From a virus, in the IMG/VR virus record IMGVR_UViG_3300027749_000295, positions 1 to 34,886 of that record: a stretch of DNA of 34,886 nucleotides. One strand, given 5' to 3'. Position numbers and translations under genes: made by a program. Numbering within the stretch: position 1 is the stretch's first letter; each line of letters begins with the position of its first letter. Positions 1 through 34,886 of the stretch are shown here, piece by piece. The notes under the pieces were generated by a model. The model was not told where the DNA came from. It worked only from the letters and a program-made list of their open reading frames with translations, and did not search any database.

Positions 1-170
1 TGCGTTGGGAGTTGTTTGGTAGTAACCAAAAGTTAAATTATAAGAATTTCCATCTATTGCAGAATAGTTTGCAAGCCAATGTGTATTATCTTGTCTTAAA
101 TATGGAGTAATTCCATTTATTGTTAAACTAACAGTAGAAAGAGGAAGGGTTGGTCCGGGTGATGGCGTGA
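1..170. repeat. Left copy of the terminal overlap
   Basis: These 170 bases match the last 170 bases of the window (34717-34886) except at positions 37, 38, 39 and 44. Positions 45-170 are an exact 126-base match and 1-36 also match. An exact block of this size at both ends is typical of assembly-graph overlap of a circular or circularly permuted genome. The four substitutions next to it look like strain variation rather than a native terminal repeat. Confidence 0.85.
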
Positions 171-231
171 TTGAGGAAACAACAGGAGTCCTGCTACCGC
201 TTACGGATATTCCGTAGCCGTAACCAGCCAT
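1..231 (-). CDS. Small structural/fibre-like protein, N-terminal part (115 aa across the contig ends)
   Basis: The ATG at 231 starts one base after the stop of the upstream 96-aa gene. 77 codons are present before the window begins. The same sequence recurs at the right end, where reading continues to a TAG at 34600, giving a 115-residue protein. It opens with MAGYGYGISVSGSRTP, then a Thr/Ser/Pro-rich stretch, then an aromatic-rich part (around residues 50-80) with the pattern DG-x-x-Y-x-LTFGYYQ. There is no signal peptide or membrane segment. Position after the capsid genes and the composition suggest a virion surface or adhesin-like protein; this is inference and no family was recognised. 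A similar aromatic pattern occurs in the 206-aa protein at 19854-20474. Confidence 0.7.
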   Translation of the reverse strand, partial: MAGYGYGISVSGSRTPVVSSITPSPGPTLPLSTVSLTINGITPYLRQDNTHWLANYSAIDGNSYNLTFGYYQTTPNA

Positions 232-232
232 A

Positions 233-523
233 TTAGTCTCCGATTGCGAGGACTACGCCAGAATGAATACGAAAATTGGAGACATCCCCAGCAATATAAG
301 CACCGGCAGGAATGGTCGTTGCACTTGCCAAGGTTGTGTTTGCAATCGCACTCATTCCAGTAACCGTAGATGTGATTGAGTAAAACTTGGTTTCAGTAAT
401 AGCCACTAGGCCAGCAAACACGCCAGTAATAGAACTTGCCGTAGTGGTTACATATTGCGTTCCGGGTCTAGCGGCGTGGGAAATCTGATCGTAGTAAGGT
501 TCGGAGTTGGAAAGGTCGGACAT
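233..523 (-). CDS. Small phage structural protein, 96 aa (unknown)
   Basis: This 96-residue protein has no membrane segment and is rich in Thr, Ser, Ala and Ile. Its C-terminal half alternates small and beta-branched residues (ITETKFYSITSTVTG, then TIPAGAYIAGDVSNFRIHSG), as in beta-sandwich virion proteins. It is the first gene after the terminator behind the capsid gene and lies one base before the start of the 115-aa gene, so the two are probably co-translated. No strong Shine-Dalgarno motif precedes the ATG. The role is inferred from position only; a head-fibre or minor decoration protein is plausible. Confidence 0.6.
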   Translation of the reverse strand: MSDLSNSEPYYDQISHAARPGTQYVTTTASSITGVFAGLVAITETKFYSITSTVTGMSAIANTTLASATTIPAGAYIAGDVSNFRIHSGVVLAIGD

Positions 524-609: not shown

Positions 610-1572
610 TTAGCTGTAAGTCGTGGTGATACGGACGGCGGCGTTCGCATCAATGACTTTCTCCGAGGTGTTCATACGAACACGGAGGATGTTGGAGCGG
701 CGTGGCTCATCACGATAGCTCTCTGAGACGAATCCACCGGGAGCGTCATCAGACCAGACCAAGGTGCGTCCTAATCCACCAGCGGTGAATTGACCACCAG
801 CCACATTGGCAACTACAATCTTGGTGTCGGGCACAATGAACGAGCCAGAGTAGCTCTTGTTCTTGTTGGCAGTATTGTAAGCCGCACGTCCGATGTAGAC
901 ATTATCTACGCCGAAAGCGAGGGCGATCTGTTTCTCATCGAGCAAGCGACCACCAGTATTTGAAACAACTCCGTAGAACTGATTCTGCAAGAGGGTGGTG
1001 CGGCGAACACGCTCGTAAACGTTGGCAGACATGATGACCGCATTGGCTTCGTAACCTAATTTATTCAAGGCCAATTTACCAGCCGCAACGTCCGCAGGGG
1101 CGTTGATCGTGGCAAGATTGGCTTCGATGTAGGAAGCCGTAGGGCTAACATCAGCCGTGGTGAAGGGGGTCGAGGTTGCCCAGAGCAAATCAGCCACCCG
1201 CTTTTCGTGGGAGAGCTTGATCTGACGGAGCAAGAACTTCGCCGTCTCTGCTTCGAGCGAGAAGAACCTGTCGGCATCCGCACGGAAGCTGTCATCCAAA
1301 ACTTCTTCTAGTCCGGTTTCTTGGCAATCGTAGGTGTCGGAAGTGAATTTACGAATCGCACGGGCGTATTCGCTACCAGCGTTCCGCTTGGCCGCATCAG
1401 CGTTCAAGAGGTCAGCATCGGAAGTTTGCACTTTGAGATAAACACCACTCTTCGCCGAAACTGGCAAGAGGGGCATAATGTCCGCACCGATCATTCCAAT
1501 CGAGGCGGGTGCTTCAATGAGGGCTTGGTTAATATCGGCACGAATCGTTGTGCCACCAGAAATAAAACTCAT
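610..1572 (-). CDS. Major capsid protein
   Basis: This 320-residue protein sits directly after protease/scaffold and decoration genes, the lambda-like order. It has features of HK97-fold capsid proteins: an N-terminal region with acidic and aromatic residues, a long helical part (DSFRADADRFFSLEAETAKFL onward, about residues 95-130), the motif NAVIMSANVYERV near residue 180, and the segment GRTLVWSDDAPGG followed by an Arg-rich C-terminal strand region. The length is typical (lambda gpE is 341). The upstream sequence is purine-rich (AAAGAAAGAA) rather than a strong Shine-Dalgarno. It is probably cleaved and assembled with the scaffold encoded at 1991-2389. Confidence 0.8.
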   Translation of the reverse strand: MSFISGGTTIRADINQALIEAPASIGMIGADIMPLLPVSAKSGVYLKVQTSDADLLNADAAKRNAGSEYARAIRKFTSDTYDCQETGLEEVLDDSFRADADRFFSLEAETAKFLLRQIKLSHEKRVADLLWATSTPFTTADVSPTASYIEANLATINAPADVAAGKLALNKLGYEANAVIMSANVYERVRRTTLLQNQFYGVVSNTGGRLLDEKQIALAFGVDNVYIGRAAYNTANKNKSYSGSFIVPDTKIVVANVAGGQFTAGGLGRTLVWSDDAPGGFVSESYRDEPRRSNILRVRMNTSEKVIDANAAVRITTTYS

Positions 1573-1608: not shown

Positions 1609-1971
1609 TTAGAACAATGGGATTGCGATTTCGATAACAGCGTTTGTTGCCGTTGCCGCTTCGAGAGCGATTCCAGCCGTTGTTAGGTTTGTGGCCGCCG
1701 TGGTCACTAAACCAGTCGCATCAAAAAACACCGTGTTACCAACCGCCGCCGTGCCAGAGACGGTTGCGAAGAAGGTGGGGTGCAACAACTTAACTGTCAC
1801 AAAGCCAGCAGCGGGCGCGTCTTCTTGCGTCACGCCGATTGCTCGGGCGCTTCCAGTAACCGATGCGTTTACAAAACCAGCCGTGGTTGTATCGGGGCTG
1901 ACCATCCGATAAGCCGAAATTGCCGAGGCAGTTCCGAACGTACGAAATGCTGAATCAATTTGAGTAGACAT
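1609..1971 (-). CDS. Head decoration / capsid cement protein (DUF2190-like)
   Basis: A 120-residue small beta-rich protein. It is rich in Ala, Thr and Val with the pattern GVTQEDAPAAGFVTVKLLHPTF and a later AAVGNTVFFDATGLV, which resembles capsid cement proteins of the DUF2190 type. The ATG is preceded by AAAAGGA at a suitable distance. It lies between protease/scaffold and the major capsid gene, where lambda has gpD. Such proteins bind the expanded capsid surface and stabilise it. Assignment rests on position and sequence pattern. Confidence 0.65.
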   Translation of the reverse strand: MSTQIDSAFRTFGTASAISAYRMVSPDTTTAGFVNASVTGSARAIGVTQEDAPAAGFVTVKLLHPTFFATVSGTAAVGNTVFFDATGLVTTAATNLTTAGIALEAATATNAVIEIAIPLF

Positions 1972-3520: not shown

Positions 3521-5971
3521 TTATTTTGCTTTATCTTTTAGTGGCCCGCCAACAATCCAAGCGTCACAAGTCCTTTTAGAAGCGCACTTGAAATCAAAAA
3601 TCTCGCAGTAGCCCAGATCGCCACCAAGGGTAACTTCATTTGCATCCGCACCGATGCCCTTCTTGATGCATCCAAGGAGCTTGTTGGTCTGATTAAAGGC
3701 GGCACAATTACCGCATCTCATCTTCTTTGCTGTCTCTACATCGCCTTGAAATTCGTCAGCCTTGGCCTTCCAATAGTCCTCGTTAGGTTCATTCGGATTG
3801 GCTGGGCCATAGTTCGCATCGTCCACGGCGTTCTGCCTGTTGGCTAGGTTTGTCTTTACATCTTGCGTTGCAATAGGGCAAGTAGCTGGTTCTTCTAGCT
3901 TCTCATCTCGGCTATCCATTTGCTTAACGAGTTTCTTGACCCAAGAGAATCCAGCGTCACCGCCCCAACCATTCCACGCTTGCCAGCCCTTCCCTTGATC
4001 GTCCCAGCCCTCACCCTTCTTATCTACTTCGTGACGGCTGAAAAAGGAGTGCATCCTACGAATTGTGTCTGGTGATAATTTCTTCCCTGCAATCAAGTCC
4101 CTTGCTCTAGCAATCCCCACAGAGGTCATTCCCCGCTGGCTAGGTGGTTTCTCCCCACGAACTGCCAAGGCTCTCTTTGCCGATTCCCTTGCTCCTTCGG
4201 GTGGGGTGAAATCAATGTCTGAATACTTGCCTAGTTCGCAAGAGTTTATCATTCCCTCAATAAGCATCTTGAGGCTTTCGTTATCTAGGCTTCCCAGTTC
4301 CTCTAGGTTGTTACTTATAGTTTTTTTTTGCGTATCTTCGGTTGTACTTTTTTCGGTAGGCTCACGCTCCTCGCCCACATCAATATCGCCATCGCTTCCA
4401 GTTGTTCGGCTGATGGTGTCTTGCTCTTTGATTGAGGGAACAATGGCCACGGCGTTTTCGTCTTGTGGTTCTTCTTGCATCTGTTCGGGCGCAGGGGTTG
4501 GCGAGCCAAAGGCGGGGGCTTGAATTGGTTTGTTGATGTCTGAAATTGTGTCTGGGCTTACTCCGTATTGTTCGGCCAAGTCTTTAATTAGTTTAGCCTC
4601 TAAAGCCCTCTGCCTCATCGAGCTTTCAAAGTCTAAGCCTTTCTCCGCATATATAGAACTAGCTGTGGTTAGGCCGCATCGAAATTCTGAGATATTGGCT
4701 TGGCTCTCCCTGCCTAAATCTATTGAGACATTTGCGCCAAAATTAAAGATTCCCTTTGTGCTTTTGCCTCCAAGGTTGTTCTCAATCAATCCCCTAGAAA
4801 CCGCATCGGCAATTACAATGTTCTTGAGGGGACGAAGTACCCTATCTTCTAAGAGCTTTTGGTATCTTCGGAAAGTCCGTCCCGCTTGTTGCATTTCTAG
4901 GCGAGCAGTTGGGCCAGACATCGAAGAAGGGTCAACGGCGAAGCTGTAGGGGATGCCCACCCCCATACAGATATTCCTCAATAGGATTCTATGAAACTCT
5001 GCAAAAGCCCCGCTGGGTCGGCTTGGGCCGTCTGGGAATACAATATCTTCGTTCACTTCCAAGTAGCTGATCTTCCCCGGTTCGATAGTTTCAAGTTTGA
5101 TTCCTTGGTTATCGGCGTTCAGATCATCGGTAAGAGTGGATAGGTCGGAAGCGTTGTTGTTGTTTCGCTTAACGATTCCAGCCTGTGAGCTTGCTAGCTT
5201 CGCCGCCATCTTCTCAGAGGCGATGATTTCATATAGATCGACGCAATCATTTATTGCCGTGTGGAAAGCTGAGATTCCCCTGTACTGGTCGATGCGGAGG
5301 GGGTCATAAAGATGAAAGGCTTGAGTGGCTGGGATTGTGGTTTGGAAAATGTAAGCGTTCCCGTAGGTGCGTAAATAAATATCATAACCAGTTGGTGCGC
5401 CTGTCTCTTGGTCAATATGGATTCCCCCGATTAGGTTAAGGCTTGTATATGTTCGGTTCGGGTCTCCTATCCTATCCGCTTCGATGCCTTGTAGTTTTAG
5501 GTTGCCATCTTGCGATCTGACCAAGGCAAAAAGAAAATCGCCATCTCTTAGCATACTCATCATTGCAATTTGCATTAGGAACGAGCCTGTATGCCGTCCC
5601 GATAGGTCACACTTGTCCCACCACTCGTTCCAATACGCTTCGACATCCGTGTTCACGGAAGGGTTGTCTGTTCTGCATTGATAGGAAATATTACCCGCAC
5701 AATGGCTTGCAAACTTCATCAATAGGCCACGCACTAGGCCAACATTTTCGGCTAAGTCTCTGGAACGCTTTAAAAGCTCAACCCGATCATAGTTAGAACG
5801 AAAGCCTTCCGCACCAGCTAAAGACGAAGGGCCACGCCGTTGTCTGTTGTATTTTGTCGCATCGTAATCGAACGCTGTGAGCTTTGCCCGAGAAGCAAGA
5901 CGCTCCACTCCCTTTTGTGGGCTAACAAAAGCAATCGCCCTATCCAGTATGTTCAGCCCAACTTTCTTCAC
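3521..5971 (-). CDS. Portal protein (lambda family) with long C-terminal extension
   Basis: 816 residues, starting with GTG right after the stop of the gpW-like gene. The first ~480 residues match lambda-type portals: an N-terminal region with YDATKYNRQRRG, then LLKRSRDLAENVGLVRGL, GDFLFALVRSQDG, and the YRGISAFHTAI and SGPTARLEMQQAGRTFRRYQ motifs. Lambda gpB is 533 residues, so about 300 are extra. They comprise a Pro/Glu/Gln-rich linker (480-570), a helical domain with RHEVDKKGEGW and WGGDAG near 595-670, and a Cys-rich domain near 695-810 (CGNC, then GYCEIFDFKC and RTCDAW). The fused domains resemble accessory modules found in other aquatic phage proteins; their role is unknown. Confidence 0.85.
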   Translation of the reverse strand: MKKVGLNILDRAIAFVSPQKGVERLASRAKLTAFDYDATKYNRQRRGPSSLAGAEGFRSNYDRVELLKRSRDLAENVGLVRGLLMKFASHCAGNISYQCRTDNPSVNTDVEAYWNEWWDKCDLSGRHTGSFLMQIAMMSMLRDGDFLFALVRSQDGNLKLQGIEADRIGDPNRTYTSLNLIGGIHIDQETGAPTGYDIYLRTYGNAYIFQTTIPATQAFHLYDPLRIDQYRGISAFHTAINDCVDLYEIIASEKMAAKLASSQAGIVKRNNNNASDLSTLTDDLNADNQGIKLETIEPGKISYLEVNEDIVFPDGPSRPSGAFAEFHRILLRNICMGVGIPYSFAVDPSSMSGPTARLEMQQAGRTFRRYQKLLEDRVLRPLKNIVIADAVSRGLIENNLGGKSTKGIFNFGANVSIDLGRESQANISEFRCGLTTASSIYAEKGLDFESSMRQRALEAKLIKDLAEQYGVSPDTISDINKPIQAPAFGSPTPAPEQMQEEPQDENAVAIVPSIKEQDTISRTTGSDGDIDVGEEREPTEKSTTEDTQKKTISNNLEELGSLDNESLKMLIEGMINSCELGKYSDIDFTPPEGARESAKRALAVRGEKPPSQRGMTSVGIARARDLIAGKKLSPDTIRRMHSFFSRHEVDKKGEGWDDQGKGWQAWNGWGGDAGFSWVKKLVKQMDSRDEKLEEPATCPIATQDVKTNLANRQNAVDDANYGPANPNEPNEDYWKAKADEFQGDVETAKKMRCGNCAAFNQTNKLLGCIKKGIGADANEVTLGGDLGYCEIFDFKCASKRTCDAWIVGGPLKDKAK

Positions 5972-10835: not shown

Positions 10836-11365
10836 CGTTTTTTCCCTCCCTTTTTAATGCCCTTGGCAAAGGCATCCTTGTTCCATTTTGGACATTCCTT
10901 ACGCCGGCGTTCATGGATGCGCTTGGCTCGCTCCTTGTAGATTTCCCTAACTCGCTCCGTCCGTTGGATGCGGAGGGTGAGGCCTGTGCGCTTTGTGAAC
11001 TTGGAAATGCGGGCTGATAGGGCGGCTCGGGTGTAGGGCTTGCCTGTCGATGGGTTCATAAATCGGGCGGCCAAACTGGTGAGGCTCTCTGGTGATCGGT
11101 TCGACATCGTGGCTAGAATCGCCTCGTCCAAGGTATCATCTCGCTTATTCTTAAGAGTTGGGTTGTCCGTCTGGCTAGACACAGTTTCTTCTACGATCTG
11201 GGTGAGCATCTTTGCCAACTGGTCTAGGCCAAGTGCGGGGTTCATCGCTTGCATTTGCGAGAGCCGTTCCCTCATTTGATCTTCAAGGGTGTCGATGGTC
11301 TCTGCCATATCTGGGGTGTAGCTTGCCCGAATGGAGTCGGCTGGGTCTTGTCCGTCTGTTTTCAT
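10832..11365 (-). CDS. Putative DNA-binding protein, 177 aa
   Basis: A highly charged protein. The N-terminal half is helical with Met/Gln-rich segments. Residues about 95-135 (SLTSLAARFMNP, then PYTRAALSARISKFTKRTGL) resemble a helix-turn-helix with a basic recognition helix. The C-terminus is strongly basic (ERAKRIHERRRKE and KGIKKGGKKR). This composition suggests nucleic-acid binding. It is coupled to both neighbours by ATGA overlaps. No family recognised. Confidence 0.55.
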   Translation of the reverse strand: MKTDGQDPADSIRASYTPDMAETIDTLEDQMRERLSQMQAMNPALGLDQLAKMLTQIVEETVSSQTDNPTLKNKRDDTLDEAILATMSNRSPESLTSLAARFMNPSTGKPYTRAALSARISKFTKRTGLTLRIQRTERVREIYKERAKRIHERRRKECPKWNKDAFAKGIKKGGKKR

Positions 11366-11511
11366 TTTACTAAGGCCGCCAATCTGATGATTCCGTCAGT
11401 CCAATCCTTGCGCTTGCGTTCCTTGTATGCCTCAGCCAACGCTCCAAACCCACGATGGAGCATTTTCTTCTTCACCTTCTTTGGCTTCTCAAGATACCAC
11501 GGCTTCTTCAT
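11362..11511 (-). CDS. Small basic protein, 49 aa
   Basis: A 49-codon reading frame starts with an ATG that overlaps the previous stop codon and ends in a TGA that overlaps the next ATG, so it fills the gap between two genes exactly. It begins MKKPWYLEKPKKVKKK and contains GFGALAEAYKERKRKDW. About a quarter of the residues are Lys or Arg. Operon fit is the main evidence; the function is unknown. Confidence 0.6.
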   Translation of the reverse strand: MKKPWYLEKPKKVKKKMLHRGFGALAEAYKERKRKDWTDGIIRLAALVK

Positions 11512-11798
11512 TTGATAGCGTCCCGCCATTGGCTTGTGCGCTTTGGCTTCTTGATCTCACCGTTTTCCGATAGGTAGCGAGCGTGGTACTGGATAGCCCC
11601 CTGGCTTTTGTTTAGCGTCTCGGCGATAGTCCGGGTCGGGATGCCATTCGTGATCAGAGTCTTTACTGCGTCTCTCAATAGCTCGATCTTGTCTTGCCTC
11701 TTGGTCGTTGCCATCAGGTTCTCAATATCACCAGCCGTGTATCGCTCGTTGATAATCGCCTTGGCCTTGGCCGCCGAGGATATGAAGGGTTCGCTCAT
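11508..11798 (-). CDS. HTH regulator-like protein, 96 aa
   Basis: The middle of the protein (LITNGIPTRTIAETLNKSQGAIQYHARYL, around residues 48-76) is a good helix-turn-helix: a short helix, a turn and a recognition helix resembling Hin/resolvase-type HTH domains. The N-terminus is helical and may mediate dimerisation, and the tail is basic. It sits in the early region and may regulate this operon. No effector domain is present. Confidence 0.6.
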   Translation of the reverse strand: MSEPFISSAAKAKAIINERYTAGDIENLMATTKRQDKIELLRDAVKTLITNGIPTRTIAETLNKSQGAIQYHARYLSENGEIKKPKRTSQWRDAIK

Positions 11799-11852
11799 CT
11801 GTTGTTGGTTCTATGTTGCAGATTTGTTAAGGCAAGTTCCATCTTTAGGTTG

Positions 11853-12113
11853 TTACAAATAATACTCCGCAACGCTTTTCCCGCTATTCGTTTTCACGGT
11901 GCGCTTGTAGATTGGATGTCCCATCTTTTTCAGATCGCATATCCTACTTGCTAGGCGAAAGCATCTGAACCATTCCAACGCATCGAGAGCCGTGATCGCT
12001 CGCCCTGTTTTTAGGTGGGCTAGGATTCTGGCGTTCTGGTCGTGGCCTTCACTCTGCTTTGGGTGAGTGGTTCGGGTGAAAGGTAGCTCGTATTGCTCGG
12101 CAAGTAATATCAT
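11853..12113 (-). CDS. Helix-turn-helix protein, HTH_39-like, 86 aa
   Basis: The ATG at 12113 overlaps the upstream stop (ATGA); an earlier in-frame start is less likely. The core NARILAHLKTGRAITALDALEWFRCFRLASRICDLKKMGHPI matches the phage winged-helix pattern known as HTH_39: LxxG..IT..eAl..f....LaaRI.dLr..G..I. A short beta wing (KRTVKTNSGKSVAEYYL) follows. Such proteins are common in phage replication and recombination operons and often have unknown targets. Confidence 0.7.
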   Translation of the reverse strand: MILLAEQYELPFTRTTHPKQSEGHDQNARILAHLKTGRAITALDALEWFRCFRLASRICDLKKMGHPIYKRTVKTNSGKSVAEYYL

Positions 12114-12640
12114 TTGATGTTCCTTTTCTTTGCTCGCATAGCTGAGTGTCTGCATTTGGGGAACTCGATTAGATTCCTTCCTGTACCTCGTCTCGCTACG
12201 AATTTATTCTTTATCGCATGATAGACGCTTCCTCTTTCGCAACCCCAAGCCTTTGCAAGTTGAGCCGGAGTAGCCCCCGAATCAATCTGAGTTTTCCATA
12301 GCTCCCAGCGTTTCTTAACCACCTCATAAGAGCGGTTGCTTCTCACGGTTTGAAATGTAGGCAGTAGTTCCTTTGGAGTTTCGATGGGTATGTCATCCCC
12401 TTGGATATGATCTCTGATCATTTTGCGGGGTATTGTGAGACGAATGTTGGCCATTATAGAGGCTAGGTTATCAATCTGCCCTTTGTCGGAGTTCTCCTTT
12501 AGCTTACCGATTATCCCTGCAAGCTGGTTTATCTTGTGATCTTGCAATGTAAACTTATGGCTTTGCATGGCAAGCCTTTCCTCAATTTGCTTGAGCCTGT
12601 AAGCTAATGTACTTATTGCCGCGCTTTCCTCTGTTATCAT
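12110..12640 (-). CDS. Coiled-coil plus HTH protein, 176 aa
   Basis: The start is at 12640, where the ATG overlaps the stop of the initiator gene. The N-terminal 70 residues are a coiled coil (YRLKQIEERLAMQSHKFTLQD, INQLAGIIGKLKE). The C-terminus has a helix-turn-helix (SGATPAQLAKAWGCERGSVYHAIKNK) and a basic tail. Directly after a lambda O-like initiator one would expect a helicase loader (lambda P or DnaC type), but no Walker motif is visible. It may be an oligomeric regulator or an accessory replication factor. Confidence 0.55.
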   Translation of the reverse strand: MITEESAAISTLAYRLKQIEERLAMQSHKFTLQDHKINQLAGIIGKLKENSDKGQIDNLASIMANIRLTIPRKMIRDHIQGDDIPIETPKELLPTFQTVRSNRSYEVVKKRWELWKTQIDSGATPAQLAKAWGCERGSVYHAIKNKFVARRGTGRNLIEFPKCRHSAMRAKKRNIK

Positions 12641-13413
12641 GGACAACCCGCTTTCACCCAATCTTCTCTGCACTTAAAGCCCATTACCTTGTAGGTGGGC
12701 GGTGAGTAGCAACTATTCCGGTGGTTATCATTCATTGGTTTGTTTTCCTTTTTGGTTGTGGTTTGATTCCGTCTCTGACAATTTCGAGCGCAAGCTCTCC
12801 AATCCTTCACGGGGGTCTTGCCCCCAATCTTCCATCCGTTGCTTTCGTAGTAATCGAAAGCCGACTCCGCATCCGTTGCTCCCCATCCGATCTCCTTTGC
12901 ATATGCAGACCAATCAACGCGCGTGGGGCGCAAGCCCTCTCTCTCTTTCTTGTTGTTACTATTGCTCTCGCTCTGACTATAACTCTTACTCTTACTCTTA
13001 CTCTTATTCTGTACGATGGATGGTTCATCTATGGGCGATAGATGGTTCATAGATGGCTCATCTATGGTGCATCTATGGGTCATCCTTGAGGCATAACCTT
13101 CTGCCTTTTGGTTCATCTTCACAAGTCCTTTCTCTATACCAGAGTGATAGATAGCCCCATCTTTTCGGGTAAAAACACCAGCGGTTTCTAGTTCATCGAG
13201 TAGCTTTGTCGCATCCTCACCCACCATTCTGCCTATCTGTTCCGTGGTCGGCGTGATTCCGTTGATGACCAGCCGCCCCCCTTCATTGGCTTTGTAGGCT
13301 AGGCAGAGCAAATGAATCCATAGCCCTTTCGCACCAAGACTCACTAAGGCCAACTTCTCATTCGATAGCCATCGGTTCGGTTCAAAGGCAAACCAGAAAT
13401 TGTCCCGCTTCAT
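12637..13413 (-). CDS. Replication initiator (lambda O-like)
   Basis: 258 residues. The N-terminal winged-helix region (NFWFAFEPNRWLSNEKL, LGAKGLWIHLLCLAYKANEGG, then EQIGRMVGEDATKLLDELETAGVF) matches phage replication initiator/replisome organiser proteins. The C-terminal domain has AFDYYESNGWKIGGKTPVKDWRACARN, a pattern common to such initiators. Between them lies a low-complexity linker of Lys-Ser repeats. The gene itself carries six 11-bp iterons and a polypurine repeat, as in lambda, whose origin lies inside gene O. The expected partner is the host replicative helicase. Confidence 0.75.
   Translation of the reverse strand: MKRDNFWFAFEPNRWLSNEKLALVSLGAKGLWIHLLCLAYKANEGGRLVINGITPTTEQIGRMVGEDATKLLDELETAGVFTRKDGAIYHSGIEKGLVKMNQKAEGYASRMTHRCTIDEPSMNHLSPIDEPSIVQNKSKSKSKSYSQSESNSNNKKEREGLRPTRVDWSAYAKEIGWGATDAESAFDYYESNGWKIGGKTPVKDWRACARNCQRRNQTTTKKENKPMNDNHRNSCYSPPTYKVMGFKCREDWVKAGCP
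12983..13006. repeat. Hexanucleotide repeat (CTCTTA)x4, polypurine tract of the candidate origin
   Basis: Four perfect CTCTTA units, extended on both sides by imperfect units, give a strongly strand-biased tract that is purine-only or nearly so on the minus strand. It encodes the Lys-Ser repeat of the initiator linker. It lies about 12 bases from the iterons. In lambda an AT-rich, strand-asymmetric segment next to the iterons is where the duplex opens. Confidence 0.65.
13019..13084. repeat. Six tandem 11-bp iterons, candidate replication origin
   Basis: Six contiguous 11-base units on the plus strand: GATGGTTCATC, TATGGGCGATA, GATGGTTCATA, GATGGCTCATC, TATGGTGCATC and TATGGGTCATC (consensus KATGGKTCATM). 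The period is not a multiple of three, so it is not just a protein repeat; the protein shows only an 11-residue echo (IDEPS twice). The array lies inside the initiator gene between its two domains, as lambda iterons do inside gene O. Confidence 0.75.
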
Positions 13414-23056: not shown

Positions 23057-24415
23057 TTAGTTTACAAGGGTTGCTGATTTCATTAGGTCAACAAGGGCTG
23101 TGATGGCCTTCATTACATCGGCGGTTTGACTCTGTGCTTCAACACCGGGTTTGTCAGTTGCAGGGCCAAGGTCAGAGGTCATGCCCATAGATTGTTTTTC
23201 GAATCTGCTTTGTGCTTGTTGAGATGCAATTTGGGAGGGGTCAACACCCGTCATTTGCCCTTGAATTTGATTGGCTAGGCTAGGTGCTTCTCTTGCTGAT
23301 TGCTTGGCGGCTTCTCGTTCTTTAATCGCTTGCATTGTGATCGGGCCTTGCCCTCTCTCAGCCCTTATCTTGTTTTCGTCATCTTGCATCTTTCCAAAAA
23401 CTGCCTCTTGTGTCTTGAAATTTGCTTGCTTGTTTTCCCTTTCCGTCCTTTTCCTAGCTGAACCAAGGGCTTGTTGCCCTCCTCTGCTTGCTCCCAATAG
23501 GCCACCGCTTAGTGCTTGAGCTTTTTTAGTTTCATCTTCTCTAGTTTTCTTTACAGATTGCTCAAGCGTCAATCTTTTTTGTGCAATCTCTAGGTCTTTT
23601 TCTCTTCCCTTTCTTGTAAGATCGTCAATAAGTTTTATATTTACGCCAACATCCTTTAACTCATATAATTGCTCTAGCTGTTTGTTGATTATTATAAGCT
23701 CAGATTTTGATAGTTCTAATTCTGCTCTTAAATTATTATATGAATCTTCCTTTGTTCCATTTCTTACATTATCTAGCTGTTCAAGTATTTTATTTAATTT
23801 AACAGTTCGTTCTAATTCTCCCGACTGTTCTGTTCCCGATTTTATTATTTTTGCTTCTTCTTGTCTTGTTGCAATTATTTGTTTTTGTGTTTCTAAAAGG
23901 GCTTCGGTATCGGCTAACTCTTTTTCCGTGTCTGCAACGCCAAGGTTTATTCCGGTTAACTTCTCGAGTCCTCCAAGTATTTTTCCTAAAGAGCCTAGTT
24001 TTGTTAGTTTATCTCGTAGTTTTTCTACAATATCCTCTGTTGCTTGAAGTCCAGCTTGAGCCTCGTCAACGCTTTTGCTTTTGAATGATTGCTCAAAAGC
24101 TCCAGCTAGGGATTTTTGCGTTTCATAATAGTCGATTGCCGCCTGTTTAACCGCCTCCCCAAACTTGTTCACCGCACCAACCGCCGCCGCCCCAATAATG
24201 CCAGCCGTGCCAAGCCGAGCCAGTTGCATAAAAGAATGAGATGCGTCTGTTCCTGCGCTTCCTAGATGTAATAGGCTTTTGGCTAGGTGCTTTGTTGATG
24301 TTCCAGCATTATCAAAAGTCTTAGATGTTTTTTTGGCCTCACGCTGAAGGTTTTTGAGTACGGGAGTTCCCTTTTTGTCGTCAATCAGTACCTCTCCTTC
24401 AATCTTAAATCCCAT
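23057..24415 (-). CDS. Tape measure protein (short)
   Basis: 452 residues starting one base after the upstream stop. It is largely helical: a Lys-rich start with NLQREAKKTSKTFDNAG, a Gly/Ala hydrophobic segment (LGTAGIIGAAAVGAVNKFGEA, residues about 68-88), then long charged coiled-coil stretches and a Gln-rich tail. This composition and the place after the frameshifted chaperones identify the tape measure. It is much shorter than lambda gpH (853), predicting a short tail of roughly 65-70 nm at about 0.15 nm per residue. The central part is AT-rich. Confidence 0.75.
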   Translation of the reverse strand: MGFKIEGEVLIDDKKGTPVLKNLQREAKKTSKTFDNAGTSTKHLAKSLLHLGSAGTDASHSFMQLARLGTAGIIGAAAVGAVNKFGEAVKQAAIDYYETQKSLAGAFEQSFKSKSVDEAQAGLQATEDIVEKLRDKLTKLGSLGKILGGLEKLTGINLGVADTEKELADTEALLETQKQIIATRQEEAKIIKSGTEQSGELERTVKLNKILEQLDNVRNGTKEDSYNNLRAELELSKSELIIINKQLEQLYELKDVGVNIKLIDDLTRKGREKDLEIAQKRLTLEQSVKKTREDETKKAQALSGGLLGASRGGQQALGSARKRTERENKQANFKTQEAVFGKMQDDENKIRAERGQGPITMQAIKEREAAKQSAREAPSLANQIQGQMTGVDPSQIASQQAQSRFEKQSMGMTSDLGPATDKPGVEAQSQTADVMKAITALVDLMKSATLVN

Positions 24416-28894: not shown

Positions 28895-29386
28895 TTAAAT
28901 CACGCCAATATACATTGAATTTTGCTGTTGATAGAAGTTTAGGTATCGCAACCCGTCCTCAAGTTCAGAAGGAGTACAGATAACACTCATAGTCAAGCCC
29001 CTTTGCCATGCTCTTTTATTGGCTCGAATGGATGGGCTTTGACCGCTTATCCTAGCCATGTGAATTTTTGTGTCGAAAATTGTGTTCTGTATCTTGGTAG
29101 CAAGGGTAGGTGTTTCAGAATAGAACGCTTCAAAGATAGCGCAGTATTCAGCGTCAAAGTTCTCTTGGGTAATCTTGGCCGCCGTGTCTGAATAGTTCAC
29201 CGCAACGCTCAAATCATAAACCCCTGTATAGTTGCCTAGCATTTGAGTATTTACAGAGGCAGAGATTGTGACGAATGGGAAGAATCTAAGCCCGATGCGG
29301 TTTGTGGTATAGACATTCAAACCAGAGATTCCCGCAAGCAAGTCTCCAATAGCATCCTCTACATTATATTGTGGTGTCTGGTTCAT
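28895..29386 (-). CDS. Tail completion/terminator-like protein, paralogue 2 (163 aa)
   Basis: Clearly paralogous to the preceding 138-aa gene: both share GI(S/T)G(L/V)N followed by a Thr-x-Arg, a G-x-(Y/F)TGV(Y/F) strand, a FDA(E/K) helix, a P-x-LA segment and a GQS-x-(S/A)I-x-x-(N/K)-x-R-x-W-x-R-x-(L/I)T end. An extra 25-residue tail (DGLRYLNFYQQQNS) distinguishes it. The position after head genes suits tail terminator/completion proteins (gpU/Z-like). Start overlaps paralogue 1 by four bases (ATGA). Confidence 0.6.
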   Translation of the reverse strand: MNQTPQYNVEDAIGDLLAGISGLNVYTTNRIGLRFFPFVTISASVNTQMLGNYTGVYDLSVAVNYSDTAAKITQENFDAEYCAIFEAFYSETPTLATKIQNTIFDTKIHMARISGQSPSIRANKRAWQRGLTMSVICTPSELEDGLRYLNFYQQQNSMYIGVI

Positions 29387-29799
29387 TTCTTTGCGCTTGC
29401 TGTAATGTCTAGCGTTATGGCTCTATTCCAAGTTCTATTCTTGGATTCAATGGCGTTGCTCTGTCCTGTTACTTTGGCCACATAACAAGTGATATTTGAA
29501 GCCGTGGTGATATAACTTGCAAGGTCGGGTGATCTGTAAAGCTGTCCTAATATATTAAAGAACTTTGCATCAAAAGCGGTTCGGCTAATTGTGTCGGCTC
29601 TTGCCGTGTAGGTAAGCGTGGCAGGGGTTTTGAATACTCCTGTAAATGGGCCAAGTTCCTCCCCTCCAATGCTCGCTTGAACTACAATGTTGGGCATAGT
29701 CCGAGCCGTGCCTCTTTCGCTAGTGAAGAAATTAACACCAGTAATGCCAGAAACTGCGTTGAGAAGCCCCTTCTCAATCTCTCGTTCAATTGAGGCCAT
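29383..29799 (-). CDS. Tail completion/terminator-like protein, paralogue 1 (138 aa)
   Basis: The start is at 29799 (MASIEREIEKGLLNAVSG), where ATG overlaps the upstream stop as TAATG. A longer in-frame extension reads through the coding sequence of the upstream gene in another frame and has unlikely composition. It shares the domain described for the gene after it. Two related proteins in tandem suggest gene duplication followed by division of labour, for instance at the two faces of the head-tail joint. Confidence 0.6.
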   Translation of the reverse strand: MASIEREIEKGLLNAVSGITGVNFFTSERGTARTMPNIVVQASIGGEELGPFTGVFKTPATLTYTARADTISRTAFDAKFFNILGQLYRSPDLASYITTASNITCYVAKVTGQSNAIESKNRTWNRAITLDITASAKK

Positions 29800-30116
29800 T
29801 AGGTTGTGATGTCGGCTAGTTCGATGGTATAGGAAACTCCATCCGTACTTTGGGAGAATCCCGCAACCATTCGTTCTATGCCAGAAACAGAGCAGAGCAT
29901 ACCAATCGTAGGAGCAGAAATAGAAGAGGCGGGAACGACAAGGCTCTGGGTTATCCTTAGAATCTCTCCACCTATATCCAAATCTGTTGCCGTGGTTAGA
30001 TCGGTTACAGAGGCACACACGGCAGTAGAACCCAATCCAGTTACGGAAGAGTATAGGTCTTTTATCATCCCGCTGAGATCGGAAAGGAAATAGGTTGTGT
30101 CAATCGAGCCAGCCAT
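29799..30116 (-). CDS. Head-tail joining-like protein, 105 aa
   Basis: A small protein with two helices at the start (YFLSDLSGMIKDLYSSV) and a beta-rich remainder (CASVTDLTTATDLDIGGEILRITQSL, then IGMLCSVSGIERMVAGFSQSTDGVSYTIELADI). It comes directly before the paralogous tail completion genes, where lambda has FI/FII-type joining proteins. The closing strand pattern resembles FII-like barrels only loosely. Confidence 0.5.
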   Translation of the reverse strand: MAGSIDTTYFLSDLSGMIKDLYSSVTGLGSTAVCASVTDLTTATDLDIGGEILRITQSLVVPASSISAPTIGMLCSVSGIERMVAGFSQSTDGVSYTIELADITT

Positions 30117-30131
30117 AAATCCCGCCTAGTG

Positions 30132-30803
30132 TCAATCCAGCTTTATCATTCCCTCAAAGTCAAAAATGTTGTCAGTTTCCCACTCGTTCTTTTGGGGGAA
30201 GAACCCGGTGTTCTTATCCTTCCTAACCGCTGAGGCCAAGATGATCGGGGTGCTATTAATTGCCCAGAACATATCTGCACCTCGGATAGCCTTTGCCATA
30301 TCTTCAATGTCTGGGGCGGTGTAGGTCGAAAGCCCTTGTATTTTAATATCGAGCGGGGTCATCACATAGAAGTTTTCTTTGCCCATCTCAGACCTCGCCT
30401 TTGTTATGATCTCAAGCGGATTGTTCCTATACCCTTGGCTGATTCCAAAAGGAGCAACTAGGTTATATTTATCGGGCAGTTCCTTGGACGGCTTATCATC
30501 CAGCTTGTCTAGGACGATGTTCGTCTTGTCTGCTCCTTTGATTTCGGAATGGCTATAAACAAAGTCCGTCCAAGTCTTTTTGCTCTTTCGGTATTCCTCG
30601 TATTTGTTCGGCCATACCTCAAGGTCAATGATGTCTCCCTTGCTCCCCGCCTTCACATAGGAGACAAGATCGAATACGGAATGATATTGGGGCAAGCAAT
30701 CAAAGAAAACCTCTTGCCCTTGGTCTGCCAAGAACTTGGCGGCGGGTAGGCATCTGAGGACATCCCCTAGCCTCTGCGAGTATTTGATTGTCTTAGCACT
30801 CAT
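30132..30803 (-). CDS. Glycosyltransferase family 9-like protein
   Basis: From the ATG at 30803, 223 residues. KYSQRLGDVLRCLPAAKFLADQG matches the start of heptosyltransferase-like GT9 proteins (GD-x-L-x-x-LP-A). KYNLVAPFGISQGYRNNPLEI and ADMFWAINSTPIILASAVRK follow the second-domain sugar-nucleotide site pattern. It is shorter than bacterial GT9 enzymes (about 330). Last gene of the glycan cassette; its start overlaps the stop of the previous glycosyltransferase. Confidence 0.65.
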   Translation of the reverse strand: MSAKTIKYSQRLGDVLRCLPAAKFLADQGQEVFFDCLPQYHSVFDLVSYVKAGSKGDIIDLEVWPNKYEEYRKSKKTWTDFVYSHSEIKGADKTNIVLDKLDDKPSKELPDKYNLVAPFGISQGYRNNPLEIITKARSEMGKENFYVMTPLDIKIQGLSTYTAPDIEDMAKAIRGADMFWAINSTPIILASAVRKDKNTGFFPQKNEWETDNIFDFEGMIKLD

Positions 30804-31560
30804 CGGCAACGCTTTTGTCTGTTATGAATGGCAGATAATCCCTCAGCCTAACTGGGCTTGTCGTTTGTTGTAGCCTTTCCCATCCTTCAACTATCCCCTT
30901 GTACCCATAGAAATCTTCTTTGAATTGTGCCTGTTCTTTCGTGGCGTATGCGTAGTGATCAAAGGTTAGCCCCCAAGTTTCTGTGACTCCCCTCGGAATC
31001 ATCAAAGATTGGACATTGAGCTTGGGCGGTTCATGGCTTGTAAAATGAATGTCCCTTCCCCATCTCCAAGCTCTAAACCACTCGTACCAGTTCGAGCCGA
31101 ACCCCTCCCTAGTCACTACTCTCTTGTTCTGCCCTACAAAATAGTTGCAATGAAACTGCATCGCTCGCCCCTCCTCGCATCCTTTGAGATGTCCAAAAAT
31201 AGCGTCTATCTGTTCGGCTTTCCATATCTCGTCTGAATCAATCTGCATCACAACCCCTCCCTCTACTCCCCGCAAGGCTTCGTTTATCATCGCCAGCTTC
31301 CCCTCGAAGGGTTTAGCTTGCCAGTAAACAGATATATTTTCCCCTCTAATGCTCTCAAGATATTCGTGTGTTCCGTCCACGCTTGCAAAGTTCTTATGAT
31401 ATTTGTCGGGGATTTGCTTGCACCACCGAGTACATCCTAGAGGTTCGCTTACTCCTTCAACGATGTTCCATCTCCAAGGGATTTGCAGTTTTCTAAACTC
31501 TGCTAGGTGCTTCTCAATATAGGGCATCCCATTTAGAACAATGGTGAAGATAGTTAGCAT
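30793..31560 (-). CDS. GT-A type glycosyltransferase, 255 aa
   Basis: Starts MLTIFTIVLNGMPYIEKHL, as in GT2-like enzymes, with VVMQIDSDEIW near residue 105-115 carrying the D-x-D metal/nucleotide-sugar motif. The C-terminal part is Trp/Tyr-rich (NWYEWFRAWRWGRDIHF, YYAYATKEQA-like segment), which may define the acceptor pocket. It is translated with the FkbM-like gene (7-base overlap). The sugar and the acceptor are unknown. Confidence 0.7.
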   Translation of the reverse strand: MLTIFTIVLNGMPYIEKHLAEFRKLQIPWRWNIVEGVSEPLGCTRWCKQIPDKYHKNFASVDGTHEYLESIRGENISVYWQAKPFEGKLAMINEALRGVEGGVVMQIDSDEIWKAEQIDAIFGHLKGCEEGRAMQFHCNYFVGQNKRVVTREGFGSNWYEWFRAWRWGRDIHFTSHEPPKLNVQSLMIPRGVTETWGLTFDHYAYATKEQAQFKEDFYGYKGIVEGWERLQQTTSPVRLRDYLPFITDKSVADEC

Positions 31561-32066
31561 TTTAGTCGGCCATAAATAACGCTAATCTCTGAGCAGAAAG
31601 AAACAGAGTCATATTGGTAACACTCAAACCCAATAGACTCAAACCAAGTCATAAACTCCTTAAGCCATAGATCGGAATAGTGAAGTTCAATGGCGATCTC
31701 CTTTAGTGTCCCCACATCTGCAATCTGCAACATTCTTGACTCTTCTCCCTCTATGTCGCATTTGATGTGAGTTATTAAGTTTTCCTTAATCAGTCCTTGG
31801 ATTTGCTCTGATGATTCTATTCTTTGGCATAGGAATTTGCCCTCTGGATATTGCCTAGACAGAGATTCAATGTCCCCTTGGTTTATTTCGATTCCCATGT
31901 AGAACTCTGGCTTTTGTGATAGGAAGTATTTTGCCGTGCCGTTGCCCTCTTGCCTTTCTGCCTCCGTCCAGAATCCGCATCCCAAGTCTAGGACTCTTCC
32001 CCCCTTAACATTAAGATGCTCCCAATGAATCTGCGGAGCTTCCGAATCTATTGTTCCCTTGGTCAT
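31554..32066 (-). CDS. FkbM-like methyltransferase
   Basis: 170 residues from the ATG overlapping the previous stop (ATGA). RVLDLGCGFWTEAERQEGNG is motif I of class I methyltransferases; FYMGIEINQGDIESL is the acidic motif II; THIKCDIEGEESRML matches the FkbM D-x-E-G-x-E pattern; IELHYSD follows. FkbM-type enzymes methylate hydroxyl groups, often on sugars. Longer starts upstream lie within the preceding gene. Confidence 0.7.
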   Translation of the reverse strand: MTKGTIDSEAPQIHWEHLNVKGGRVLDLGCGFWTEAERQEGNGTAKYFLSQKPEFYMGIEINQGDIESLSRQYPEGKFLCQRIESSEQIQGLIKENLITHIKCDIEGEESRMLQIADVGTLKEIAIELHYSDLWLKEFMTWFESIGFECYQYDSVSFCSEISVIYGRLKC

Positions 32067-32671
32067 AACTGGAAGATGGCCGCCCCATTCCGACAAGCCA
32101 TATCCTCCCATAGCAGGGTTGCAGTTCGCTTTAGCTTTTCATAATTAGCATAGTTCTTGATGTCGTTCACATCGTCTAGGGCGATGATTGCTTTCTCTAC
32201 TAGGAAGGGTCGGACACAACGCAGTTCTGATTCCCCAGAGAAGGGCGAGCCATCAATCAATACAAAGTTAAAATCTACATTATGGTCGAAGTGAACATCC
32301 TCGATTGCGCTGGTTTTGTATTGGTAGGCAGTTTCAAGACATACATTATGCCAGCCCAAGACCTGCTCTAGCGGGTACTGGTTGAGCGTTGTCTTTGTGG
32401 TTCGATAGAACTCCTCAATATCTTTCTTGTTTAGCCATAGACTCGATAGGGTTGCCGTGCCGTTGATTGCTACTCCCCCCCTTGCCGATAGGTTCATTGA
32501 GTGTCGGCCTATGCGGTCTGGATGGTTCTCTATGCTGAATAGTTTCTTTGTCTTGATGCATTGCGTTGAGCCGTCCCCTGTTCCTCCACCAATCTCTAGC
32601 CCTACATCTAGCCCTTCACTATATTTTTGGAGGGCTTGTCCAAATGAGTCGTTGATGGTTATTTCTTGCAT
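32063..32671 (-). CDS. Class I methyltransferase, 202 aa
   Basis: VGLEIGGGTGDGSTQCI (residues 23-39) is the SAM-binding loop; KLFSIENHPDR gives motif II; FNFVLIDGSPFSGESELRCVRPFL is motif IV-like; and IIALDDVND is the next strand. This layout resembles Methyltransf_24-type O-methyltransferases found in glycan clusters. It overlaps the upstream 84-aa gene by 13 bases and is followed by an FkbM-like gene. Confidence 0.7.
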   Translation of the reverse strand: MQEITINDSFGQALQKYSEGLDVGLEIGGGTGDGSTQCIKTKKLFSIENHPDRIGRHSMNLSARGGVAINGTATLSSLWLNKKDIEEFYRTTKTTLNQYPLEQVLGWHNVCLETAYQYKTSAIEDVHFDHNVDFNFVLIDGSPFSGESELRCVRPFLVEKAIIALDDVNDIKNYANYEKLKRTATLLWEDMACRNGAAIFQL

Positions 32672-32913
32672 CTTGCCATTTCTATTAGTGCCTTCTTAAT
32701 TACATATTCAATGACGGCCTCCGGGTCTTGCTTCAAGGCCAACATCCCCGCCTCGTATAATTCCTTCTTAGCCTTTTCGTCATAGGTAATATCGACATTT
32801 ACAAACTTAGTTTTGCAGGGGCGAGATTTCCCAAAAGTAATTATACCAAGACCCTTGGTATGCTCTCCCTTTTTAGCTGTCCTACAACCAATTATTTGCT
32901 TTGTGCTTTTCAT
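32659..32913 (-). CDS. Small basic protein, 84 aa
   Basis: From the ATG at 32913, inside the end of the glycosyltransferase gene. The Lys-rich N-terminus (KSTKQIIGCRTAKKGEHTK) is followed by FVNVDITYDEKAKKELYEAG and a helical end (DPEAVIEYVIKKALIEMARCKK). No known domain. It lies within the glycan cassette and may be unrelated in function, or a small regulator of it. An earlier in-frame start adds seven residues. Confidence 0.5.
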   Translation of the reverse strand: MKSTKQIIGCRTAKKGEHTKGLGIITFGKSRPCKTKFVNVDITYDEKAKKELYEAGMLALKQDPEAVIEYVIKKALIEMARCKK

Positions 32914-34534
32914 AGATCGCCTTGCCTTTCTCATAGAACTCTGGCTTGTTGTGGTTTTTTAGTTGCTCGTCTGGGTTGCCCCCTGTGAACATAGGATTCT
33001 CGTGTTTGAATTGAACATGTCGAGCCTCAACTACCACTTGATTTAAATAGGCAAGCTCTGTGAATTCGTTATCGGAATATAAACCATCGCTCTCTTGATA
33101 GTCGGGGTGAAACATGTGACCCTGCTTTTTTAGCCTATCTTTCGTGAGAATCGCCATACAGAGGAGTTTGTCGGTTCTCAGCCCATCTGATACTGCCAAT
33201 ACCTTCTCGGCCTTGCTGTCCCCAATAGCGTTCGAAATTAGGGCATCCCAATGGCGGGGTGGTGCCCAATCATCCGACATTTGAATAATGATGTCCCCCT
33301 TGGCTATTTTTGCCCCTGCGTTCCAGGCATTGACGATGCCACCGGGGTTGCATCGAATCCCTTGGTGAGGGGTGTAGTCGGTCTTTTCGTCTGCATCCAC
33401 CATGAATAGCCATTCAATTTCAAGGGGTTTCTCGGCCAAGCACAACCATTGCCATCTTCTCTGCCAAGCGATCTGCGGTCTGCCCTTAGTAGCGTGAATC
33501 ACGCTTATCTTTGGGGCTGGTTTCATCTTCTTAATCTTCTCAACCTCCACGCTTTCGCCAACACAAACAGAGGCGGTTTCAAATAGATCGAGGGCTTGCC
33601 AGTTGTAGATCGCTTCAACTTGATTCCAATAATGAGCTTTTGGCCTGTGCAGAGTCATGCAACTTCGGATTGCTCCATATGCCTTATGCCAACTAGCCTT
33701 CCCCGAGTAGTGATTTGCTATATAAAAATACGCCTCTCTGCGGTCTGGTTGGAGAGCCACGGCTTGTCCTAGCCACGCCAGCCTGTCGTTATCCCCCACA
33801 ATCCTCCCCAGATTGCAAAGCACATCATATCGAAGCGTGTCCTCTAGCTCTGGAAAGGCCAAGGCTCTCATGCTGGAATCAATGCACTTCTCAATCTGGT
33901 TTGATAGAAAGTATTCTTGGGCTTGGTAGTATAGAGAATTGGGAGCAGTTGAAAGGGTGTCGGCTAAGATGTTAAAGTTCCTTTCAGCACTTTTGGGCTT
34001 GTACCCATCGGGCTTGTGGATTCTAAATATCTTGTCTGTCGCTATGGTCTTGTTTGACTCTTTAGTGACAAGCATTTCGTGAACTCGATTCTTCCAAACA
34101 CAAGTGCCTTTCTTGCTTATCTCTTCTCGGAGGGGCATGAGTCCGGCGTTGTCGACATTGTACTTTAAAGCCACTAGGTGAGCGTCTTTCTCTATGGCTA
34201 GGGCAATAGCTTCCTCTGCCACCTTCTCGCCGTCATCAGCCATTACATCGTCAGCGTCCACCCATAAAGCCCATTCACACTCACAAGCCTCTAGCGCAGT
34301 ATTTCGAGCCGTTGCAAAATCATCTATATGCTCCCAATCAGTTCTTTTGTTCTGGTAATGAACGATTCTAGCACCGAGAGAAAGTGCGATCTCCTCTGTC
34401 TTGTCGGGCGTAGCTGACCCCCTAGAAATACATACAACAACTTCTTTTGAGATGGGTTTAAATGATTCAATGCAACGCTTGATGTATGCTTCTTCATTTC
34501 CAGCTATTAGATAAACAGAAAGAGGATATTTCAT
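32882..34534 (-). CDS. Two-domain glycosyltransferase (GT2 - TPR-like - GT2)
   Basis: 550 residues in three parts. Residues 1-170 are a GT2 domain: SVYLIAGNEEAYIKRCIESF, then WALWVDADDVM with the D-x-D motif. About 190-335 is helical and TPR-like (YYQAQEYFLSNQIEKCIDSS, then AYFYIANHYSGKASWHKAYGA). Residues 345-550 form a second GT-A domain: ISVIHATKGRPQIAWQRR, VNAWNAGAKIAKGDIIIQMSDDWAPP and a conserved-looking HEN-x-MF tail. Two catalytic domains suggest that it makes two linkages. It opens the cassette after a 65-base AT-rich gap. Confidence 0.8.
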   Translation of the reverse strand: MKYPLSVYLIAGNEEAYIKRCIESFKPISKEVVVCISRGSATPDKTEEIALSLGARIVHYQNKRTDWEHIDDFATARNTALEACECEWALWVDADDVMADDGEKVAEEAIALAIEKDAHLVALKYNVDNAGLMPLREEISKKGTCVWKNRVHEMLVTKESNKTIATDKIFRIHKPDGYKPKSAERNFNILADTLSTAPNSLYYQAQEYFLSNQIEKCIDSSMRALAFPELEDTLRYDVLCNLGRIVGDNDRLAWLGQAVALQPDRREAYFYIANHYSGKASWHKAYGAIRSCMTLHRPKAHYWNQVEAIYNWQALDLFETASVCVGESVEVEKIKKMKPAPKISVIHATKGRPQIAWQRRWQWLCLAEKPLEIEWLFMVDADEKTDYTPHQGIRCNPGGIVNAWNAGAKIAKGDIIIQMSDDWAPPRHWDALISNAIGDSKAEKVLAVSDGLRTDKLLCMAILTKDRLKKQGHMFHPDYQESDGLYSDNEFTELAYLNQVVVEARHVQFKHENPMFTGGNPDEQLKNHNKPEFYEKGKAIYEKHKANNWL

Positions 34535-34599: not shown

Positions 34600-34886
34600 C
34601 TACGGACTTGTAATTGTAATTGATGGACTCCAGCCTGTTAGCGGAATTGCAGAACTTGATGATAGATTTGTGCTTATTACACCTCCTCCAATTTCATTTT
34701 CATACCAAACCTCCCATGCGTTGGGAGTTGTTTGGTAGTAACCAAAAGTTAACCAATAATAATTTCCATCTATTGCAGAATAGTTTGCAAGCCAATGTGT
34801 ATTATCTTGTCTTAAATATGGAGTAATTCCATTTATTGTTAAACTAACAGTAGAAAGAGGAAGGGTTGGTCCGGGTGATGGCGTGA
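34600..34886 (-). CDS. Small structural/fibre-like protein, C-terminal part (continues at 231-1)
   Basis: This end carries the rest of the 115-residue protein whose start lies at the left end. Reading from the right edge it repeats the aromatic segment, here as DG-N-YYW-LTFGYYQ, and continues WEVWYENEIGGG, STNLSSSSAIPLTGW and SITITSP before the TAG at 34600. Compared with the left copy, Ser becomes Tyr and Asn becomes Trp at two nearby positions. All four base changes fall in these two codons. Confidence 0.7.
   Translation of the reverse strand, partial: TPSPGPTLPLSTVSLTINGITPYLRQDNTHWLANYSAIDGNYYWLTFGYYQTTPNAWEVWYENEIGGGVISTNLSSSSAIPLTGWSPSITITSP
34717..34886. repeat. Right copy of the terminal overlap
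   Basis: Matches the first 170 bases of the window with four substitutions (positions 34753-34755 and 34760 here). The inner 126 bases up to the window edge are identical. Joining the contig at this overlap restores the single 115-residue reading frame without frameshift, which supports circular closure. Confidence 0.85.

Follow-up and report, generated by a model that had tools for sequence, protein, structure and literature searches.

A conserved TPR-containing glycosyltransferase and exchangeable downstream enzymes between the capsid and neck genes of uncultured phages suggest a virion-glycosylation module

We analysed a stretch of 34,886 bases of viral DNA (IMG/VR record IMGVR_UViG_3300027749_000295, here called the window), in which the genes for the terminase, the portal and the major capsid protein (MCP) all lie on the minus strand, and in particular a gene cassette at positions 30132-34534. 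A first-pass annotation, made from the letters alone, had described this cassette as a tightly overlapping operon of six genes for three glycosyltransferases (GTs), one of them with two catalytic domains, two methyltransferases and a small basic protein, situated between the capsid-side and the head-tail connector genes. All six open reading frames (ORFs) are present on the minus strand, overlap is seen at 5/5 gene junctions, and 15 bp separate the cassette from the next gene, which we term connA. The first and the last 170 bases of the window (1-170 and 34717-34886) are identical at 166/170 positions, with 4 mismatches, and this near-terminal repeat is that of a circular genome opened within the gene for a surface protein, the mismatches at the join reflecting strain variation. 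Moreover, contig L002 (related contigs carry L numbers throughout) shows the unbroken order MCP, dec (our label for a 96-residue protein rich in serine and threonine, S/T), a 115-residue ORF, cassette and connA. It is identical to the window at 1500/1500 bases in the MCP block and at 5673/5680 from the start of the large GT gene onward. Since the window ends match and L002 reads through, the annotated placement of the cassette between capsid and neck genes is real.

The largest cassette gene encodes a 550-residue protein in which both of the proposed catalytic domains are recognized: residues 6-101 match the Pfam family GT2 (PF00535, E 6.7e-15, 55.9 bits at a cut-off of 23.3) and residues 342-546 match the PHROG glycosyltransferase 14945 (7e-8). 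Between them lies a tetratricopeptide repeat (TPR) stretch (about 189-311) that had gone unremarked. In a 17-sequence alignment of the enzyme D93, D95 and D96 are invariant, as is a QMSDDW motif in the second GT-like domain. The best PDB matches of the 17-orthologue profile are GmaR (1.4e-12), SunS (2.9e-9) and a ThuS-type enzyme (7e-8), and over residues 199-311 the same profile matches designed TPR proteins. Foldseek, run with the predicted model, ranked SunS/ThuS first (6e-16). In VIA, the model aligns with ThuS at Z 19.1 over 276 residues spanning positions 1-339, the root-mean-square deviation (rmsd) of 12.9 suggesting that the domains may be hinged differently; matches to the GT-A domain only reach a Z of at most 16.8 (rmsd 2.4, 159 aligned). 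The protein has the make-up of the SunS/ThuS/GmaR type, namely a GT2 domain followed by a TPR or helical domain with significant matches to solved members, and by profile and predicted structure its nearest solved relatives are the protein or peptide glycosyltransferases GmaR, SunS and ThuS. A hydrophobic anchor, sought as a 19-residue stretch above a Kyte-Doolittle value of 1.2, is found in none of the six cassette proteins. As a separate observation, in L133 (positions 1-2277), a TPR-GT homologue runs into a domain that by eye looks like a methyltransferase, in one frame of 758 residues.

In this lineage the large GT belongs to the core genes. Among 101 contigs fetched by MCP queries, 88 carry it next to or downstream of the MCP gene and the remaining 13 end within 3 kb of that gene, so that the gene is present in every MCP-bearing contig whose sequence extends 3 kb or further downstream. 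The first-pass annotation had looked to relatives lacking the cassette for comparison, and the large GT is present in all of these contigs that extend far enough; it is the other enzymes that are interchangeable. We therefore rejected the idea that the cassette is an optional moron. MCP relatives at 48-52% identity (L132, L148, L149 and L155) retain the GT at 37-39% identity, while in the stretch fetched from the Arthrobacter phage Kovu, a more distant MCP relative (22% identity), only the MCP profile matched. Ratios of nonsynonymous to synonymous polymorphism (pN/pS) of 0.12-0.31 across the cassette genes indicate purifying selection, with a GT median of 0.17 and an MCP median of 0.16 at synonymous sites that are near saturation. 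The cassette ORFs are not chance ORFs, since with these ratios they also recur, open, among the 76 contigs that span the region from the GT to the first neck gene (duplicates removed).

In these 76 spanning contigs the remaining window genes occur in varying numbers: the GT9-like gene in 65, the basic protein in 62, the 202-residue methyltransferase-like protein and the second GT2-like enzyme (GT2b) in 56 each, and the 170-residue protein annotated as 'FkbM-like' in 28. What replaces them at the cassette site includes a GT47-exostosin/radical-SAM fusion with Methyltransf_23 (L152), a radical SAM protein with Transket_pyr and E1_dh (L059), Methyltransf_23 (L051), a true FkbM gene (L017), Glyco_trans_1_2 below its cut-off (L024), and a HAD phosphatase with an NTP transferase and a weak GT2 (L132); the smallest cassette (L044) consists of one gene without assignment. 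Thus, the enzymes after the large GT are interchangeable between phages at one fixed place. Two of the replacements deserve mention in their own right. In L059 (2821-5862) and L070, radical SAM and split transketolase/E1-like genes could form a branched-sugar pathway in a phage. The L152 fusion (11332-13185) joins exostosin GT47 and radical-SAM domains in a phage protein of 618 residues; ORFs similar in size and place occur in L149, L151, L153 and L155, the domain scan having been of L152 only.

The other five cassette proteins were assigned with differing confidence. GT2b is a weak GT2 (20.5 bits to the Pfam family, under the curated cut-off of 23.3) with D108, D110 and E111 invariant in its alignment; against PDB profiles it found nothing relevant, and the A2-A1 profile comparison gave a weak match. 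The 225-residue protein had no HMM match, Pfam giving no GT9, but its AlphaFold2 model (pLDDT 92) lets us assign it with confidence to the GT9/heptosyltransferase fold: Foldseek placed TibC on top (2.6e-7), and in VIA it aligns with heptosyltransferase II (Z 14.7, rmsd 3.3, 217 aligned), WaaC (Z 14.5, 3.5, 215) and TibC (Z 13.0, 3.5, 213). Neither it nor GT2b matched cultured phages. With the 550-residue enzyme, the count of three glycosyltransferases holds, the third by its predicted fold. Of the two annotated methyltransferases, the 202-residue protein belongs to a Methyltransf_24-like family (17/20 aligned members match, best 1.7e-4), the window protein alone giving no Pfam methyltransferase match. 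The 'FkbM-like' label (PF05050) of the other was not borne out: 0 Pfam families matched at 0.05, PDB-profile and profile-profile searches were empty, and its profile did not match A8, a set of true FkbM proteins. In the basic protein Met8 of the longer ORF is invariant; to go by the alignments, the true starts are probably at 32913 for this protein and at 32066 for the 'FkbM-like' one.

Table 1. Cassette genes and neighbouring features of the window (S+T, fraction of serine plus threonine; r, correlation with the large GT)
Feature	Coordinates	Strand	Remarks
Large GT, 550 aa (GT2, TPR, second GT2-like domain); invariant core gene, putative TPR-guided protein glycosyltransferase	32882..34534	-	
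Small basic protein, 84 aa from conserved Met	32659..32913	-	ORF opens at 32934
Class I methyltransferase-like protein, 202 aa	32063..32671	-	family matches Methyltransf_24
Second methyltransferase-like protein, 170 aa ('FkbM-like'), weakly assigned	31554..32066	-	motifs VLDLGCG, IKCDIEGEE by eye
GT2-like glycosyltransferase, 255 aa (GT2b)	30793..31560	-	Pfam GT2 5e-4
Compact GT9/heptosyltransferase-fold enzyme (predicted), 225 aa	30132..30803	-	ORF opens at TTG 30809; ATG at 30803
connA (our label), first neck/connector-type gene	29799..30116	-	neck role by position only
Neck-type gene that covaries most strongly with large GT	29383..29823	-	r 0.92; neck role by position only
Neck-type gene covarying with large GT	28895..29386	-	r 0.91; neck role by position only
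Candidate acceptor in surface slot B, repetitive S/T-rich protein of 310 aa	27947..28879	-	S+T 0.28, best 50-residue stretch 0.46
S/T-rich 96-aa protein (dec), part of surface slot A	233..523	-	S+T 0.27, best 50-residue stretch 0.40
Slot A 115-aa protein, N-terminal part	1..231	-	near-terminal repeat; intact ORF in L002
Slot A 115-aa protein, C-terminal part (gene split by window cut)	34600..34884	-	
Major capsid protein (MCP)	610..1572	-	phrog_1005 2.6e-31
Capsid cement protein	1609..1971	-	PF09956 Phage_cement_2 5.4e-7

Candidates for an acceptor were sought among the flanking structural genes by covariation. Pairwise distances of the GT correlate with those of the neck genes at 0.83-0.92, compared to 0.17 for the MCP, 0.14 for the cement protein and 0.22 for the 96-residue protein. 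In the 40 contigs holding all genes the values are 0.83, 0.93 and 0.91 for the neck genes and 0.26 for the MCP, and after removing terL (19 contigs) they are 0.62-0.76 and 0.22. Moreover, each neck-gene cluster sits in one GT cluster, whereas the MCP clusters do not: members of one MCP cluster are spread over three GT clusters, and one GT cluster takes in contigs of two MCP clusters. That the GT tracks the neck genes and not the MCP locates a site of recombination between the GT and the MCP side, and hints at a neck or tail acceptor; the MCP is not supported as the favoured acceptor by covariation. The signal rests on few deep clades, and no difference is left among close GT pairs (GT distance <0.25), in which the correlation is 0.57 with the MCP and thus not below the 0.44-0.51 of the neck genes. 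Independently of this, homologues of the neck gene at 29383-29823 are enlarged in an insertion-like manner in L022 (7404-8537), L033 (6742-8679), L059 (6175-8016) and L155 (14129-15199).

The cassette is also flanked by two slots for S/T-rich proteins. In 37 contigs, slot A only is occupied in 10, slot B only in 19, both in 8 and neither in 0 (Fisher p 1.3e-4), slot B being empty in 10/37. It is suggestive that no contig of the 37 is without both. The 96-residue dec protein gave no match in the Pfam scan, nor did connA in PHROG and Pfam scans. Elsewhere in the window, a 452-residue protein (23057-24415) resembles, by eye, a short tape measure, which hints at a siphovirus with a short tail; promoter-like sequences are at chance level (10 vs 9.8) and terminator-like sequences number 10 vs 5.6. 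Named clues to hosts are limited to metagenome-assembled genome contigs labelled Betaproteobacteria (L132) and Chthoniobacteraceae (L133).

To our knowledge, virion glycosylation has been documented in few phages. We consider it fairly probable that the cassette is a virion-glycosylation module, in which a TPR-guided protein GT initiates a glycan on a protein of the virion, to be elaborated by the products of the variable genes; it is probable that these uncultured phages coat their own particles in sugars that vary. The protein nature of the acceptor, its identity and the order of the steps are what we infer. The TPR domain of the 550-residue enzyme would bind a phage structural protein, and its N-terminal GT2 domain would attach the first sugar to Ser/Thr (or Cys). 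The C-terminal GT2-like domain or the separate GTs could then lengthen the glycan, and the methyltransferases and other swappable enzymes could cap or remodel it, all of this in the cytoplasm, from nucleotide sugars of the host, while the particle is being assembled or earlier. The acceptor could be one of the S/T-rich surface proteins from the two slots flanking the cassette, or one of the neck proteins that covary with the GT. The presumed initiating enzyme is, in the examined part of the group, as universal as the capsid gene, which suggests that a working particle needs it, while the glycan-making genes vary; the sugar coat of the particle would then be a variable surface trait of environmental phages. 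Going further, we tentatively picture a phage 'glycotype' locus, a notion that we hold to be possible: an invariant TPR-guided GT, travelling with the neck genes, would prime S/T-rich proteins of either slot, and downstream enzyme sets (methyltransferases, radical-SAM, transketolase-like, exostosin and nucleotide-sugar genes) would be exchanged to alter the sugar coat, like bacterial O-antigen genes.

Several findings weigh against virion glycosylation. The GT9-fold enzyme is as near to lipopolysaccharide (LPS) heptosyltransferases as to TibC. In VIA the wall-teichoic-acid GT-A folds TarS, TarP and RmlT reach Z 15.1-15.8 on the same domain of the 550-residue enzyme, and phrog_13126 and a PaBG homologue are named beta-1,4-glycosyltransferase or lipooligosaccharide (LOS) glucosyltransferase. 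Moreover, confidence in the 550-residue model is modest (pLDDT 76.6 and pTM 0.51, with values under 50 over much of the final 100 residues), and the two-slot pattern loses strength once the contigs are thinned by GT distance ('neither' is expected in 1.0-3.1 and observed in 0). TibC, a GT9-fold member, is reported to modify Ser in autotransporters (PMC4358343). Although it came first in Foldseek, we dropped it as a sign of a protein acceptor, because in VIA the LPS heptosyltransferases and plant NDH-PSI subunit chains score as well or better. The structure search, which the first-pass annotation had proposed for finding the acceptor class, places the 550-residue enzyme nearest to SunS/ThuS and does not single out TibC for the GT9-fold one.

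The level standing of the LPS heptosyltransferases and the beta-1,4/LOS names are what one would expect if the cassette acted late in infection on the sugars of the host surface (LPS core or capsule), remodelling them so as to block superinfection or free progeny from receptors, and superinfection exclusion is discussed for phage GTs (PMC10202952). We regard this as unlikely, however, given the TPR domain and the SunS/ThuS/GmaR relatives of the large enzyme, the lack of a membrane segment in the cassette proteins, the site inside a head-neck operon directly before the next neck gene, and the conservation of the core at one place. The first-pass annotation had left open a glycan on a virion protein or on host sugars: glycan building or methylation is supported, as is the siting of the operon within the virion genes, and the nearest relatives together with the lack of a hydrophobic anchor favour a protein acceptor over host LPS, whereas the cassette as an add-on does not hold. 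Hypermodification of phage DNA bases, of the glucosylation type, is a role commonly given to phage GTs (PMC12619734), but it is very improbable here: the cassette lies in the structural genes, its main enzyme has a TPR domain, and no base-modifying enzyme appears among the early proteins scanned, a part of the early ORFs (10 by Pfam, 10 by PHROGs, 3 in both). Within virion glycosylation itself, the glycan could be made on the MCP, the nearest conserved upstream gene in all contigs that reach it and a protein with a reported precedent in mycobacteriophage capsids (PMC11600133, PMC12619734). The low correlation of the GT with the MCP against 0.83-0.93 for the neck genes, and the many-to-many pairing of their clusters, make this doubtful; the case is not decisive, because within close GT pairs the MCP correlation is not lower.

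In the open-licence literature, outside which most subscription journals lie, we found no description of this phage group or of TPR-GTs in virions. Virion glycosylation in mycobacteriophages (cluster O / Corndog-like) was reportedly described by Freeman and colleagues in 2023. In cluster O, the capsid and the tail tube are reported to be glycosylated (PMC11600133, PMC12619734). Phages of this cluster carry, as here, GTs and an O-methyltransferase (O-MT) within the head genes, where they lie between portal and MCP; in Idergollasper the order is portal, O-MT, hypothetical protein, GT, GT, protease, small ORF and MCP. However, neither its genes 33-36 (GTs, O-MT) nor its MCP match the cassette profiles at E<=10. 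The mycobacteriophage system is without a TPR-GT, whereas the cassette described here follows the MCP and has its parts swapped between relatives. By these comparisons, the cassette is a putative functional counterpart of the mycobacteriophage system but non-homologous to it. For freshwater actinophage GTs, the authors propose DNA protection or a change of the host wall (PMC10202952).

Among protein glycosyltransferases, GmaR is reported to transfer N-acetylglucosamine onto flagellin, its TPR being proposed to recognise the substrate (PMC9638930), SunS transfers glucose onto Cys (PMC6405829), and FlmG is another TPR-guided flagellin GT (PMC7591256). The 550-residue enzyme shares with SunS, ThuS and GmaR the GT2 domain followed by a helical or TPR domain, but differs from them in the second GT2-like domain fused at its C-terminus. 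Unlike in the SunS and GmaR systems, neither a glycocin peptide nor a flagellin gene is seen near its gene, and scans of the six cassette proteins and of variant genes turned up no glycocin precursor or SunT-type exporter. The 225-residue enzyme shares its fold with TibC/BAHT and the LPS heptosyltransferases (GT9) but is much shorter, and Foldseek and VIA disagree on which of them, TibC or the LPS enzymes, is nearest. Finally, the uncultured podovirus ctKR88 (MW202524) has the order MCP, one gene, a TPR-GT homologue (24% over 288 columns) and two GTs; its MCP is not detectably related, so this arrangement may have arisen there independently.

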